From a virus, in IMG/VR virus record IMGVR_UViG_3300027902_000008, positions 28,941 through 92,940 of that record: a stretch of 64,000 bases of DNA; one strand, written 5' to 3'. Below, piece by piece: positions 557 through 29,417 of the stretch. Under the pieces are notes generated by a model. It was not told the DNA's origin, made no database searches, and saw only the letters and a program-made list of their open reading frames with translations. Numbering within the stretch: position 1 is the stretch's first letter; each line of letters begins with the position of its first letter. A program made the translations under genes and the position numbers.

Positions 557-703
557 ATGAAAAAGCATAGAATATTGTATCAGTTAAAGAAGACAAGGTT
601 TCTTAATCCAAAAGTTAGGAGGGGTGGTAATGTTAAAAATAGACGAGATGTGGAAGGAGGGGTATGCCAAGCGGAGTCTACATTAGGACTGCATATCACA
701 TAG
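557..703 (+). CDS. small basic hypothetical protein
   Basis: A 48-residue very basic frame starts directly after the preceding stop codon (TAA then ATG). Its 3' end overlaps the HNH gene by 40 bases. Inside it, ATG 630 with a strong AGGAGGGG site opens an alternative 18-codon frame to 686, so the translated product here is uncertain. No family is recognised. Confidence 0.35.
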   Translation: MKKHRILYQLKKTRFLNPKVRRGGNVKNRRDVEGGVCQAESTLGLHIT

Positions 704-1071
704 AGATAAACAGGGAAAGCCATAAAGGGATAACTTCGGCAAATAAAGGTAAGTTTGGCGATAAAAGCTCAAAATGGAAAGGGAAATTTATAAATCATAA
801 TGGTTATACTATGGTTTATTGCCCAAACCACCCATATGCTATATCATCAAGAGTGTATCAACATCGTTTAAAAATTGAGAAGTGCATTGGAAGATATTTA
901 TTACCTGAAGAAGACACGCACCACTTGAATGGAATAAAAACTGATAACAAGCTTAGAAATCTTATGGCATTTTCTAACCACTCTGCTCATATAAGATTTC
1001 ATAAAAATCCTAATAATGTTAAAGCAAGAGAAATTATTTTTAATGGGAGGAAGTATGCTAAAAATAACTGA
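664..1071 (+). CDS. HNH homing-type endonuclease
   Basis: This 135-residue protein carries the HNH_3-type core: a His in QHRLKIE, then HHLNGIKTDN and a terminal NHSAHIRFH segment at about residues 65-117. Such proteins nick or cut DNA and often behave as free-standing mobile genes in phages. The N-terminus MPSGVYIRT resembles MPIGVYKRT of the second HNH gene at 4268, so the two are paralogues and this supports both starts. GGAGG precedes the ATG. No flanking intron is visible. Confidence 0.85.
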   Translation: MPSGVYIRTAYHIEINRESHKGITSANKGKFGDKSSKWKGKFINHNGYTMVYCPNHPYAISSRVYQHRLKIEKCIGRYLLPEEDTHHLNGIKTDNKLRNLMAFSNHSAHIRFHKNPNNVKAREIIFNGRKYAKNN

Positions 1072-3089: not shown

Positions 3090-3950
3090 ATGAAGACTTT
3101 TTTGTTTGAGCCTATACTTAATATACCAGAGCAGAAGATTGGTAAATGGGAAATAAAGCATAAATTAATTAAAGCAGGGGAAGAGATAACGATTGTATCT
3201 GTTCGTGATGCTATATTTAGTGGTAAGAAATCTCAAAAAGCTATTGTTGATAATCCAATTATTGTCCATCAACTTTATGGAGACGGCGGTTTATGGATGT
3301 CAGATAGCCCACAAGAAAATGAAGGGCAAAGAGATATAGTAGAGAAATGCAAAGGTAATGTTTTAATCGGTGGCTTAGGATTAGGTTATATAGCCTCTAT
3401 GCTTGATAGAAAGAAAAATGTTAAATCTATAACAGTAGTTGAGTTAGAGAAAGATGTTATAAGCCTTGTATGGAAACATTTAAATTTAAAGAAATCTGAA
3501 ATTATTCATATGGATTTATTTGATTATCTTAAAAGCACCAAAAAGAAGTTTAACTGGGTTTATTATGATATTTGGACTCCAACAGGAGAAGATATACTTT
3601 ATACTCATATTAGACCTCTGAAGACATTATCTAAGGGCAAGGTTCCATTTAAGCATATTCTTTGTTGGTCTGAAGCCACTATGTTAGGTCAGATGATGTT
3701 AAACTTACATACTACTATACAAATAGGATATGATAAACAACTGGGTATTGTAAGATTATCTGAAAAGGAGTTTCAAGATTACTACCATCTTAGTAGGACT
3801 ACTTGGGCTTATTATAATTGGTTCAGGCAAATGAAACCAGATAATGACTTTGCAGTAATAATGGCTAAACATTATGTTTCTACCTATACGGATTATGATG
3901 AGTGGATTAAGATTTGGGGTAAATGGGATAAGAAGGAGGTGAAATTATAA
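3090..3950 (+). CDS. class I SAM-dependent methyltransferase, spermidine-synthase-like
   Basis: The 286-residue protein contains a Rossmann SAM-binding region: GNVLIGGLGLGYIA at about residues 89-102, an acidic strand end (VVELEKDV) and a motif-IV-like VYYDIW near residue 158. The layout resembles spermidine synthase-fold methyltransferases found in many phages. The substrate is not shown by the sequence. It is the largest gene in this early block and is followed by an inverted repeat. Confidence 0.75.
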   Translation: MKTFLFEPILNIPEQKIGKWEIKHKLIKAGEEITIVSVRDAIFSGKKSQKAIVDNPIIVHQLYGDGGLWMSDSPQENEGQRDIVEKCKGNVLIGGLGLGYIASMLDRKKNVKSITVVELEKDVISLVWKHLNLKKSEIIHMDLFDYLKSTKKKFNWVYYDIWTPTGEDILYTHIRPLKTLSKGKVPFKHILCWSEATMLGQMMLNLHTTIQIGYDKQLGIVRLSEKEFQDYYHLSRTTWAYYNWFRQMKPDNDFAVIMAKHYVSTYTDYDEWIKIWGKWDKKEVKL

Positions 3951-4050: not shown

Positions 4051-4287
4051 ATGGTGAAGCCAAATGAGAAATTCCATTCCTGTGATTGTGATATGAGATA
4101 TATCAGAGAAGGAGATAGCACTGAAACCATCAAGGCATTCTTTCAGGCACATCCTTTTATGCTTGGTTTTTTAACTGGATTTATTTTTAAGAAAGGAACG
4201 GATACTTTTGCAAAGATTCTCCAAGAAGTTGCAGAAGAAAATTATAGAAAGAAAGGAGGCTGGGGTAATGCCAATAGGAGTGTATAA
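4051..4287 (+). CDS. hypothetical protein
   Basis: A 78-residue protein starts behind AGGAGGTTAAT. It has a CDCD motif near residue 11 and a short hydrophobic part (FMLGFLTGFIF). Its 3' end overlaps the second HNH gene by 20 bases. Not recognised. Confidence 0.6.
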   Translation: MVKPNEKFHSCDCDMRYIREGDSTETIKAFFQAHPFMLGFLTGFIFKKGTDTFAKILQEVAEENYRKKGGWGNANRSV

Positions 4288-4750
4288 GAGAACCAAAAAG
4301 CATTTAGCGAGATTAAAGAAGCAAATATTGAAATATAGTTTTTCAAAAAGTGGTAGAAAACTATCTTTTACTTCTCGCAAGAAACAAGCTAAAACTATGT
4401 TGGGACATACAGTTTCAATAGCCACCCGTAATAAAATCAGAAGAAAGCTTCTTTTGAAAGATGGAACAAGAAGAATCTATAATGGTTATGTTAATGTGTA
4501 TGACTCTAAGCATCCAAGAAGGAGAAGGGTGTTTGAACATCATCTTATCATAGAGAAATATATTAGAAGATTAATAAGGAAAGGTGAGGAAGGGCATCAT
4601 ATAAATGGCATTAAAACAGATAACCGTCCTCAAAATTTGATGTTATTTCGCAATAAAAGTGCACATACAAGGTTTGAAAATAAATTATTATTAAAGAAAT
4701 CACCGATTAAGAAGTCAGATATTATATTTGATGGAAGGCTATTGCCTTAA
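4268..4750 (+). CDS. HNH homing-type endonuclease
   Basis: ATG 4268 follows AAAGGAGGCTGG and gives MPIGVYKRT, matching the start of the HNH gene at 664. The 160-residue protein has a strongly basic N-terminal half, probably for DNA binding, and an HNH core (EHHLIIEKY, HHINGIKTDN, NKSAHTRF) at about residues 90-140. It is paralogous to the earlier HNH protein but has a different N-terminal linker. It sits immediately upstream of the pentanucleotide islands. Confidence 0.85.
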   Translation: MPIGVYKRTKKHLARLKKQILKYSFSKSGRKLSFTSRKKQAKTMLGHTVSIATRNKIRRKLLLKDGTRRIYNGYVNVYDSKHPRRRRVFEHHLIIEKYIRRLIRKGEEGHHINGIKTDNRPQNLMLFRNKSAHTRFENKLLLKKSPIKKSDIIFDGRLLP

Positions 4751-4805
4751 AAAGTATCCAATGAGAATTATGGTAATCCCAAAGGATGGGGAAGGAGATA
4801 GTAGG

Positions 4806-5105
4806 TTAGATTCTGTTCAGTTAGATTATGTTTTGGTAGATTAAATTGAGTTACTTTTAATTTCTTTGTGTTGAATTCTGTTATTTTGTTTTGTGTTGAG
4901 TTTAGTTAAGTTGCGTTACGTTGTATTAAATAAAGTTGGAGAAAGGGCAGGTGATAGATTATGTAAATATGTTGAGTTAATTTAAGTTGGTTTCGGTTGG
5001 ATTAGGTTAAGTTAATTTCGGTCAAGTTAATTTCAGTTCAGCTTTGTTGTGTTAGCTTAATTTCTTTTTGGTTCTGTTAAGCTAATTTTGGTTGGGTTGT
5101 GTTAT
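4806..5105 (+). repeat. pentanucleotide GTT repeat islands 1 and 2
   Basis: Two non-coding runs of a 5-bp unit built on GTTNN lie at 4806-4940 (27 units, 25 with TT in the same position) and 4971-5105 (27 units, 24 in phase). A 30-base non-repeat spacer with GGGCAGGTGAT separates them, and the phase shifts by one base across it. The two variable positions differ from unit to unit, so this is a periodic pattern rather than a simple satellite. A short frame (4761-4844) enters the region but lacks a ribosome site. Confidence 0.85.
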
Positions 5106-5124
5106 ATCTAAAGGGAGGATACAA

Positions 5125-5742
5125 ATGGTGAAGCAAAGTCCAGTAAAGGCAGTTGTTTTAAATGCAATAGATGTAAAATCTTTCAAGGTTTCAGTTGAAG
5201 GTATGACTCCATTTATCTCTCATAAATTTAGTGAGAGAAATATGAATCAAATGGAGGAGAAGCAAAGAAAGGAAAATACAAAAGAAAGGAAAGCGAGAAT
5301 ATCTATTGAAGATGAAGTTGCGGATTGTATTCATCGCTTAGATAACGGAAAAGTAGGTTATCCTACTGATGCTTTTTATAATGGTATGCGTGAAGTAGCT
5401 CCATATCTTACTAATATGGATAAAAAACTTGTTCAGGGTTCAGTTAAGGTTTCTGGTTCAGACGGTTGTCCGTTAGTAGAGATTAAACACTCTAAACAGG
5501 TAACACAAAAAGATTTTGTTAAACTATCATCTGGCGTTGCTGATGTTAGATATAGACCGAGATTTGAGGGATGGAGTTGTGAACTTTTCATTAGATACAA
5601 CGCTGCCCAAATTTCTCCTGAACAGATTATCACCCTTATAAATCTGGCTGGATTTCATAGAGGAATAGGAGACCATAGACCAGGTTCCCCAAAAAAGCCA
5701 GGAGATAACGGGATGTATAGAGTAAAAGAAACTGTAAAATAG
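5125..5742 (+). CDS. conserved phage protein, possible RAMP-like fold
   Basis: The 205-residue protein starts at ATG 5125 behind GGGAGG. It resembles a phage family with an N-terminal strand ending in GMTPFISHKFSE and a C-terminal Gly/Arg loop GIGDHRPG followed by YRV; I recall the family but not a name. The Gly-rich loop between strands is loosely like that of Cas7-type RNA-binding proteins, which is a guess to be tested by structure prediction. It is flanked on both sides by period-5 repeat islands. Confidence 0.6.
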   Translation: MVKQSPVKAVVLNAIDVKSFKVSVEGMTPFISHKFSERNMNQMEEKQRKENTKERKARISIEDEVADCIHRLDNGKVGYPTDAFYNGMREVAPYLTNMDKKLVQGSVKVSGSDGCPLVEIKHSKQVTQKDFVKLSSGVADVRYRPRFEGWSCELFIRYNAAQISPEQIITLINLAGFHRGIGDHRPGSPKKPGDNGMYRVKETVK

Positions 5743-5750
5743 GCAACTGA

Positions 5751-5905
5751 ATTTTTGTTTACATTAGGTTTTGTTCGGTTCTGTTGCTTTTGGTTGGTTT
5801 CAGTTCCATTATTTTCATTTAAGTTTTGTTGTTTTAAGTTCTGTTGGGTTGAGTTACGTTTTGTTTCGTTGGGTTACGTTCATTTCATTTGGGTTTTTTT
5901 GGGTT
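5751..5905 (+). repeat. pentanucleotide GTT repeat island 3
   Basis: Thirty-one consecutive 5-base units, all ending in TT and most ending in GTT (NNGTT), run from just after the 5125 gene to the terminator at 5910. The strand polarity is the same as in islands 1 and 2. A frame across this stretch encodes only Phe/Trp/Ser-rich nonsense and is not taken as a gene. Confidence 0.85.
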
Positions 5906-5909
5906 AAGT

Positions 5910-5950
5910 GGGCAAGGGTTCAGAGATGGACTCTTGCCCTGTTTTTAAGT
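5910..5950 (+). terminator. Rho-independent terminator
   Basis: GGGCAAG (5910-5916) pairs with CTTGCCC (5933-5939). The stem continues through wobble pairs to about 12 bp with a 6-base loop and is followed by GTTTTTAAGTTTTT. It closes repeat island 3 and lies just before the ribosome site of the next gene. Confidence 0.75.
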
Positions 5951-5966
5951 TTTTAAGGAGGTATAA

Positions 5967-6464
5967 ATGGTAAAATATAAGGCAAGAGAAGGTTCAATAT
6001 TTAATGACGAACAGGCAAATATCTATGGTAAATGTGTTGAAAAGATAGAGCAGGAAAAAGGGTCTGTTAAGCCTTTAGATGTTGTTGAGGAAGGGGAAAA
6101 GACAGAATCTCCTTTACACGAATACTTTGATTGGGATGATAAATCTGCTGCTGACAAACATAGATTACAACAAGCGAGGTATTTGCTTAATCATTTGATA
6201 GTTGAGATTACGATTGAAGGTAAATCTAAAGACCAAAATGCTTTTTTCAGCGTAGATATTGATATAGAGGGTGGTAATAAAGGTTATCTGTCTTTAGGAA
6301 AAGCTTTATCTATTCCAATATACAGAGAGCAGGTTTTGGATGTTGCTTTGCGTGAATTGCAATATTGGCAAGATAAGTATAAAGACCTTAAAGAATTAAG
6401 CCTTATATTTATAGCGATTAGGAAGATGAGACAGAAGATAAATAAGAAAAAAGGAAAGCCATAA
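5967..6464 (+). CDS. conserved phage protein of unknown function
   Basis: A 165-residue protein starts after AAGGAGGTATAA. The segment LHEYFDWDDKSAADKHRLQQAR (about residues 50-72) resembles a motif I recall from small phage proteins, followed by a helical C-terminus and a Lys-rich tail. Function is unknown. It lies between repeat islands 3 and 4. Confidence 0.65.
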   Translation: MVKYKAREGSIFNDEQANIYGKCVEKIEQEKGSVKPLDVVEEGEKTESPLHEYFDWDDKSAADKHRLQQARYLLNHLIVEITIEGKSKDQNAFFSVDIDIEGGNKGYLSLGKALSIPIYREQVLDVALRELQYWQDKYKDLKELSLIFIAIRKMRQKINKKKGKP

Positions 6465-6470
6465 TTTTGT

Positions 6471-6565
6471 AAGTTAGGTTGAGTCGTATTACGTTGGGTT
6501 TTGTTTGTATGTGTTGGTTTTGGTTATATTTAGTTCTGTTTTGTTGTGTTGGGTTTCGTTCGGTT
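6471..6565 (+). repeat. pentanucleotide GTT repeat island 4
   Basis: Nineteen units of NNGTT occupy the gap after the 5967 gene, with 17 keeping TT in phase. The unit, polarity and intergenic placement match island 3. An AGGGAGG ribosome site follows at about 6585. Confidence 0.8.
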
Positions 6566-6594
6566 ATTTAATGAAGAAATGACAGGGAGGAAAA

Positions 6595-28731: not shown

Positions 28732-29417
28732 TGGAGATAAAGCAATTTGAAACCATAGAGCTTGACATCAAGGATATTAAGAGACCATTAAAGAATCCTA
28801 ATAAGATGTCAGACTTTATGTTTATGTCTTTGGTGGAAGGTATCAAAAAAGATGGGTTTATCTATCCTTTGATACTTCGCAAGGAAGACAGCAGGATAAT
28901 TGATGGAGACCATAGGTATTTGGCTGCTATTGAAGCAGGATTAAGCAAGGTTAAATGTATCTTGCTTGATGTAACCGAAGAAGAATCCATAAAGATAGGT
29001 ATAGGTCTTAACCAAAAGAAAGGATATTTTGATTACGTTGAATTAAGAGACATCCTTACTGAAATGGAAGATAAAGACTTACCTGCTCTTTCATTGGATA
29101 CAGGTTTTACTGAAATAGAACTTCAAAGGTTGCTTGAACAAAGCACCTTTGATAATGATAAACTAATAAAACAAAAACTTGCAGAGATAGGGATACCTAC
29201 GGATAAGATAGATGCTATGGCTGATGTTTATAAGACTGGAAACTTCCAAGAACTGCCAAAATCAGACCTAAAGGGCAATCAGGAAGGAATAAGGTATCCT
29301 TTAATCTTTTTTGTTGACTCTGAAGAATCTTATAACTTTCTAAAAGACTTTTTCAAGAAAGAAGGAAGCAAAGAACCAGATACCAATAAATTGATGGAAA
29401 TGGTAAAAAATGCCTGA
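28731..29417 (+). CDS. ParB-like nuclease-domain protein
   Basis: ATG 28731 overlaps the previous TGA. The 228-residue protein has ParB N-terminal features: ELDIKDIKRPLKNPNKM, GIKKDGFIYPLILRK and the phosphate-binding IIDGDHRYLAA at about residues 60-70. The ParB fold binds CTP in partition proteins, but many phage versions are linked to DNA modification or nuclease roles. The C-terminal half is unfamiliar. It overlaps the radical-SAM gene by 8 bases, suggesting they act together. Confidence 0.8.
   Translation: MEIKQFETIELDIKDIKRPLKNPNKMSDFMFMSLVEGIKKDGFIYPLILRKEDSRIIDGDHRYLAAIEAGLSKVKCILLDVTEEESIKIGIGLNQKKGYFDYVELRDILTEMEDKDLPALSLDTGFTEIELQRLLEQSTFDNDKLIKQKLAEIGIPTDKIDAMADVYKTGNFQELPKSDLKGNQEGIRYPLIFFVDSEESYNFLKDFFKKEGSKEPDTNKLMEMVKNA

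Follow-up and report, generated by a model that had tools for sequence, protein, structure and literature searches.

VIPR, described in a preprint of 2026, is a phage-encoded system that consists of an ancestral RAMP protein (Vipr), the accessory gene vap and vrRNAs (PMC13142463). In this description, Vipr has one RRM core, a G-loop and a thumb and was experimentally shown to be an RNA-guided DNA binder, while each vrRNA comprises 9–16 GGY/NN repeats followed by a structured 3′ tail. The NN pairs define the DNA target, of which one base goes unread between one pair and the next, and the scaffold is given as GGY “or a related consensus (fig. S17)” (PMC13142463). The system is used against competing phages and satellites, and has been proposed as the ancestor of the CRISPR RAMP proteins and as the first noncontiguous RNA guide code (PMC13142463).

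Here we describe a locus in a stretch of viral DNA of 64,000 nucleotides (referred to below as the window; positions 28,941–92,940 of IMG/VR record IMGVR_UViG_3300027902_000008), in which four islands of 5-bp repeats surround two genes. Based on the repeats and their one-strand layout, the homology and predicted fold of the Vipr protein, the conserved accessory gene and the family-wide linkage of gene and repeats, we are highly confident that the islands are vrRNA arrays of a phage VIPR locus with the order I1-I2-vipr-I3-vap-I4.

The VIPR of Escherichia phage SUSP1 (type II; PDB 36pp) is likewise phage-encoded, has a Vipr homologue and an accessory gene, and carries 5-nt tandem repeats of a fixed triplet and free NN that flank the gene on the gene’s strand (PMC13142463). 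Compared with that description, the window differs in its DUU/GUU scaffold (published: GGY), in its 19–32 units per run (published: 9–16), and in having an array between vipr and vap and no recognised pseudoknot tail. The window Vipr is distant from the characterised members of the family. Its nearest named relative in the tree is encoded by the g34 locus of Cyanophage Cy-LDV1 (BK059895), an unrecognised VIPR that also has islands before and after the gene following vipr, but with a GGC scaffold and in a GC-rich genome. Class 1 CRISPR systems (Csm3/Cas7 of types III-A and VII) share the fold of the backbone subunit, which oligomerizes on a guide RNA with periodic base displacement; unlike them, the locus has no cas operon or repeat-spacer array, and it has a pitch of 5 instead of 6 and a predicted noncontiguous guide.

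Repeat Islands and Gene Content of the Locus

All four islands (Table 1) are intergenic when the vipr start is taken as ATG 5125, which is preceded by GGGAGG; the alternative in-frame start, TTG 5092, would overlap I2 by 14 bases. In the pooled islands, TT occupies the dominant phase in 97 of 105 pentamers, I3 being the most regular. Each island, its dominant phase fixed, was compared with 2,000 shuffled copies of unchanged dinucleotide content, and the phasing reached z = 10–14. The autocorrelation at lags 5, 10, and 15 is 0.5–0.6, compared with 0.34–0.39 in shuffles. A scan of the whole window found periodic stretches in the islands only, at 50 positions on the plus strand, 0 on the minus strand and 0 in 30 shuffled windows. 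GTTNN ×4 with one mismatch occurs 32 times (0.34 expected), and all ten copies of GTTNN ×5 in the entire 92,940-bp virus record fall within the islands, with 0 on the other strand. The first-pass annotation, made by eye, had thus placed the four islands almost exactly (97 of 104 units in phase), and it was right about their phase, their 5-bp repeat, their non-coding position and their single strand polarity.

Table 1. Features of the locus and of neighboring parts of the window (positions are those of the window).
Feature	Coordinates	Strand	Description
HNH endonuclease gene	664..1071
HNH endonuclease gene	4208..4750	+	Directly precedes I1
Array I1 (vrRNA-type)	4805..4939	+	27 pentamers (G/A/T)TTNN; TT in phase 25/27, z = 13.2; between HNH gene and I2
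Array I2 (vrRNA-type)	4971..5105	+	27 pentamers; TT in phase 24/27, z = 13.2; ends 20 bases 5′ of the Vipr start codon
vipr gene	5125..5742	+	205 aa, RAMP (Cas7/Csm3-like), phrog_4652 (function unassigned in phrog)
Array I3 (vrRNA-type)	5753..5912	+	32 pentamers; TT in phase 31/32, z = 13.8
Hairpin at the 3′ end of I3	5910..5939	+	Perfect 13-bp stem, then TGTTTTT
vap-like accessory gene	5967..6464	+	165 aa, phrog_15946
Array I4 (vrRNA-type)	6473..6567	+	19 pentamers; TT in phase 17/19, z = 10.0
Gene 3′ of I4	from 6595
Primase-helicase ORF	15079..17394		N-terminal half matches DNA primase, C-terminal half DnaB-like helicase
UvsX-like recombinase gene	17387..18412		Comes after the primase-helicase ORF

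The free pairs vary widely, with each of the 16 dinucleotides in use, as expected from the earlier remark that two bases change freely. The conserved GTT of the same annotation held more strictly for its TT than for its G: scaffold positions 2 and 3 are T in 96–97% of units, whereas position 1 is G in 66%, T in 21%, and A in 12%, with C nearly absent. The window scaffold is therefore DTT (GTT 61%, TTT 20%, ATT 11%) and departs from a strict GGY. The other GTT arrays have G at position 1 in 96% of units, and this difference raises the possibility of a decaying VIPR locus, in which former vrRNAs have ceased to guide and are losing their scaffold, as the ATT and TTT units would indicate; the lack of a target for the window guides (viral contigs for the cores of I1 and I3, GTDB for that of I3) points in the same direction. 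Decay should nevertheless loosen all three positions, and here positions 2 and 3 are still T, C is avoided at position 1, the TT phase is kept, both vipr and vap have intact frames, and a perfect terminator-like hairpin still follows I3. We therefore consider decay unlikely.

The hairpin after I3 has an energy of −24 kcal/mol (z = −3.8), which was matched by 0 of 200 shuffles. Judging from its sequence, it is intrinsic-terminator-like and would mark the end of the I3 transcript, of which it is possibly the 3′ tail. No strong hairpin follows I1, I2 or I4, no 3′ tail shared by the arrays could be recognised, and the Rfam search returned nothing besides tRNA.

On the plus strand, the second HNH gene, I1, I2, vipr, I3, the hairpin, the vap-like gene and I4 follow one another, and small genes come next. 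The two HNH endonucleases of the window belong to related families and are probably homing endonucleases; an HNH protein of the window may also be a VIPR-associated nuclease. Further along, the window encodes a primase-helicase, a UvsX-like recombinase, a portal, a head protease and tail fibres, and this gene content identifies the virus as a tailed phage. No cas genes or long direct repeats were seen at the locus, and PADLOC gave nothing convincing for the Vipr family.

The Vipr Protein and the Accessory Gene

Among solved proteins, the profile of the Vipr family matched one, the “SUSP1 Vipr protein” of PDB 36pp (E = 3.8e-66), and the window Vipr alone matched it with E = 8.4e-6. It was the name of this PDB entry that led to the VIPR literature; a search of the literature on 5-bp phage repeats and Cas7-like phage proteins had found nothing relevant. 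All 44 of 44 family members were assigned to phrog_4652. The Pfam search of the window Vipr gave no match, and single-protein scans of viral contigs with the window Vipr and the 57,289 gene gave no relatives, which were found by profiles alone. The AlphaFold2 model of the window Vipr has a pLDDT of 90.6, and the top Foldseek matches are Csm3 of type III-A and type VII complexes (TM about 0.5). RAMP proteins of the Cas7/Csm3 type line up along RNA. The C-terminal glycine-rich loop of the window Vipr, AGFHRGIGDHRPG, makes the G-loop visible in the sequence.

The first-pass annotation had proposed a multimeric RNA or ssDNA binder, which was correct in kind, a RAMP being encoded between the islands; its named candidates find no support, and the guide role of the NN pairs was missed. 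One of these candidates was a TRAP-type ring. In the Bacillus TRAP-RNA complex, triplets with two-nucleotide spacers are bound by a multimer, as is expected here; TRAP differs in its fold and in its NAG triplet (DUU in the window), it regulates rather than guides, and no TRAP homologue is present here. A related explanation is autoregulation, with the protein coating GUU-repeat leaders of its own operon and controlling translation or termination in a TRAP-like manner, without guiding. Islands do lie ahead of vipr, of vap and of the gene that follows, I3 runs up to the terminator-like hairpin, and a fixed triplet plus two free bases is the layout of a TRAP site. Regulation, however, has no need of all 16 NN pairs, the fold is that of a RAMP, and a gapped 22/22 target exists for a guide of the GTT class (see below). 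In addition, the homologous protein is an RNA-guided DNA binder in the experiments reported in PMC13142463. Autoregulation is thus very improbable, and the guide reading is preferred.

The gene between I3 and I4 was identified as the accessory gene on the basis of its homologues, which are present at 96 of 203 VIPR loci and mostly start at the vipr stop codon. Its protein model has a pLDDT of 93.5, and the PDB fold search gave no match better than E = 0.4.

Linkage of vipr and the Arrays in the Family

The coupling of gene and arrays was examined in both directions. When viral contigs were scanned for exact copies of GTTNN ×6, with no protein involved, at least 120 loci were returned, and 15 of those listed encode relatives of the window Vipr. 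These 15 include nearly all of the listed loci with several degenerate islands, and their vipr genes nearly always adjoin the islands on the same strand. Exceptions are L025, with islands on the strand opposite to vipr, and L013, with islands and no vipr gene within its 20.7-kb fragment. The matches also include genuine microsatellites, for example (GTTAA)n and (GGTTT)n, which lie in unrelated prophages. A simple microsatellite produced by replication slippage could accordingly be suspected in the window too; its probability is negligible, since the other two bases vary freely, four separate islands share one polarity and the family linkage is overwhelming.

In the opposite direction, profiles of three subfamilies, seeded from the GTT loci, found 185 loci, in which islands were called without reference to a motif (conservation over 14 pentamers required at three of the five phases, with no demand on the remaining two). 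Islands with a 5-bp period lie beside vipr at 121 of the 185 loci, against 0 of 185 after block shuffling; at 64 loci the caller found no island. Occurrence at syntenic sites in relatives had been set beforehand, in the first-pass annotation, as the test of the islands, and this result bears it out. The scaffold triplets of 228 of 235 islands are GGC (136), GTT (56), GGT (35), and GTC (1). As GGC, GGT, and GTC were never searched for, their emergence is independent of the GTT seeds. The islands of the family keep to the gene’s strand, nearly all of them fall between 500 bp 5′ and 1 kb 3′ of vipr, and at the level of GTTNN the test gave 34 loci on the same strand, 0 on the opposite strand and 1 in the reversed-pattern control.

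This linkage to vipr refutes in essentials a reading of the islands as a GT-rich ssDNA site for RecA/UvsX loading, a replication origin or packaging; RecA, an origin and packaging had been raised in the first-pass annotation. The GT-rich sequence, its single polarity, and the UvsX-like recombinase and primase-helicase of the phage would suit such a site; yet in relatives the islands stay with vipr while their triplet changes with genome GC (GGC, GGT, GTC), and in the window they are not near uvsX (17387) or the packaging genes (48–57 kb). Nothing points to an origin or to packaging, and we give this explanation hardly any weight.

As a positive control, the caller was applied to phiSUSP1, where it found exactly four GGT islands, one upstream and three downstream of vipr; these correspond to the four vrRNAs from small-RNA sequencing in PMC13142463. 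The same arrangement is present, unrecognised, in named phages, including Quico, the Gordonia phages UmaThurman and ODay, Cyanophage Cy-LDV1 and Felixounaviruses. In Mycobacterium phage Quico (L314:3592-3805, about 37.3–37.5 kb of the phage), some 40 near-perfect GGCNN units lie upstream of gp57, a Vipr homologue annotated as hypothetical, and the same family occurs in more than 20 mycobacteriophage records.

In many relatives (L070, L209–L231, L132, L154, L193, and others) the arrays are split by a −1 phase slip into blocks of about 10–12 units, with a conserved boundary, GGCA/GGC or GTCG/GTT. This boundary may delimit single vrRNAs, and the blocks fit the staggered arrays of PMC13142463. An 11-mer ring, considered on account of the 10–12-unit blocks, was dropped, as that source explains staggered arrays as overlapping vrRNAs.

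In L025 (950–1880), GTTNN arrays alternate with units of ~50 bp that hold GCAGGAATCGAACCTGC, on the strand opposite to vipr. This element looks like a tRNA T-arm in reverse complement, and the ~50-bp units are possible processing elements between guides.

Scaffold Triplet and Genome Composition

In the tree of 98 non-redundant family members, parsimony requires at least eight changes between G and U at the second scaffold base. Seven of the eight U-clades have GTT and one has GTC, and each has a lower genomic GC than the nearest G-clade. GTT genomes have 31–49% GC and GGC genomes 50–71%, with no overlap (U = 0, p = 2e-9, a p value that ignores phylogeny). At least seven branches, all of them of AT-rich genomes, carry the GTT scaffold. 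Probably the triplet drifted as base composition changed, and the five-base pitch was kept. A general rule of G, keto base and pyrimidine was also considered for the scaffold, and was dropped on account of two Vibrio phages that use GCA: in L490 (phiHSIC; 3637–3890) and L492 (Vibrio phage 1.266.O; 2810–3801), the Vipr homologues are flanked by 5-bp GCA arrays.

These results led us to lean, with some reserve, toward a convergent U-scaffold class (GUU; here DUU) that arose on at least seven AT-rich phage branches and uses the same code with a 1-nt skip, with unusually long guides in the window (as many as 32 units, or 64 guide bases). VIPR would then not be tied to GGY. GTT may already be among the related consensuses of fig. 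S17 in PMC13142463.

Predicted Targets of the Guides

A total of 292 non-redundant guides of the relatives, of all classes, were compared with 4.4 Mb of fetched DNA with arrays masked. At least 20 of 22 bases were matched by eight guides with a skip of 1, two with a skip of 0 and one with a skip of 2, where about 1 was expected; about 24 of 7,275 shuffled guides reached 20/22, and none exceeded it. The best match is that of a GTT-class guide of L214 to L340:6404-6436, with 22/22 bases over 11 units and a 1-nt skip. L212 has a related GTT guide that fits this site at 20/22 bases; this is one site only, and the two guides are related to each other. The reason for including L340 in the DNA set was an unrelated one, and the match is therefore unbiased. 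The site lies inside a phage ORF of 72 aa (6367–6585, minus strand, phrog_10198) that adjoins the terminase gene, and the skipped base is the wobble base of the codon. Taken by its sequence match, it is a predicted target of GTT-class guides in a gene of a competitor phage.

For the guides of the window, the 8-unit core of I3 had 2 chance matches in viral contigs and 47 in GTDB, none of which extends beyond chance, and the 7-unit core of I1 had at least 120 matches in viral contigs, with none among those listed extending beyond chance. The mean match in the flanks of the I1 and I3 core matches was 0.30 and 0.24, equal to chance. No self-targeting was found in the phage’s own record with a skip of 0, 1 or 2. 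The window guides may have targets that lie in unsampled DNA or that carry mismatches to the cores used in the search.

By analogy with the system of PMC13142463, the islands would be transcribed into guide RNAs, along which Vipr subunits would align, one per five nucleotides. Each subunit would hold the fixed triplet (here DUU, mostly GUU) and display the two variable bases, and successive NN pairs would base-pair with double-stranded DNA, one target base remaining unread between pairs (NN.NN.NN). Such loading and binding would silence the DNA of a competitor, most likely a gene of a competing phage, satellite or prophage.

Conclusion

The VIPR kind of system is already known; what is added here is the GUU/DUU scaffold, its GC-linked convergent evolution and a first, predicted target for the GUU class. 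The fixed triplet is not universal: U repeatedly replaces G at position 2, only in AT-rich genomes, at a constant pitch. The locus and its relatives therefore separate what the protein must hold, namely the pitch and a triplet, from what drifts. The sequence signature for finding VIPR loci is thereby widened, and natural scaffold variants are available for testing scaffold recognition by Vipr. If the U-scaffold class is true, the scaffold pocket of Vipr would be evolvable, and the code separable from the GG contact.
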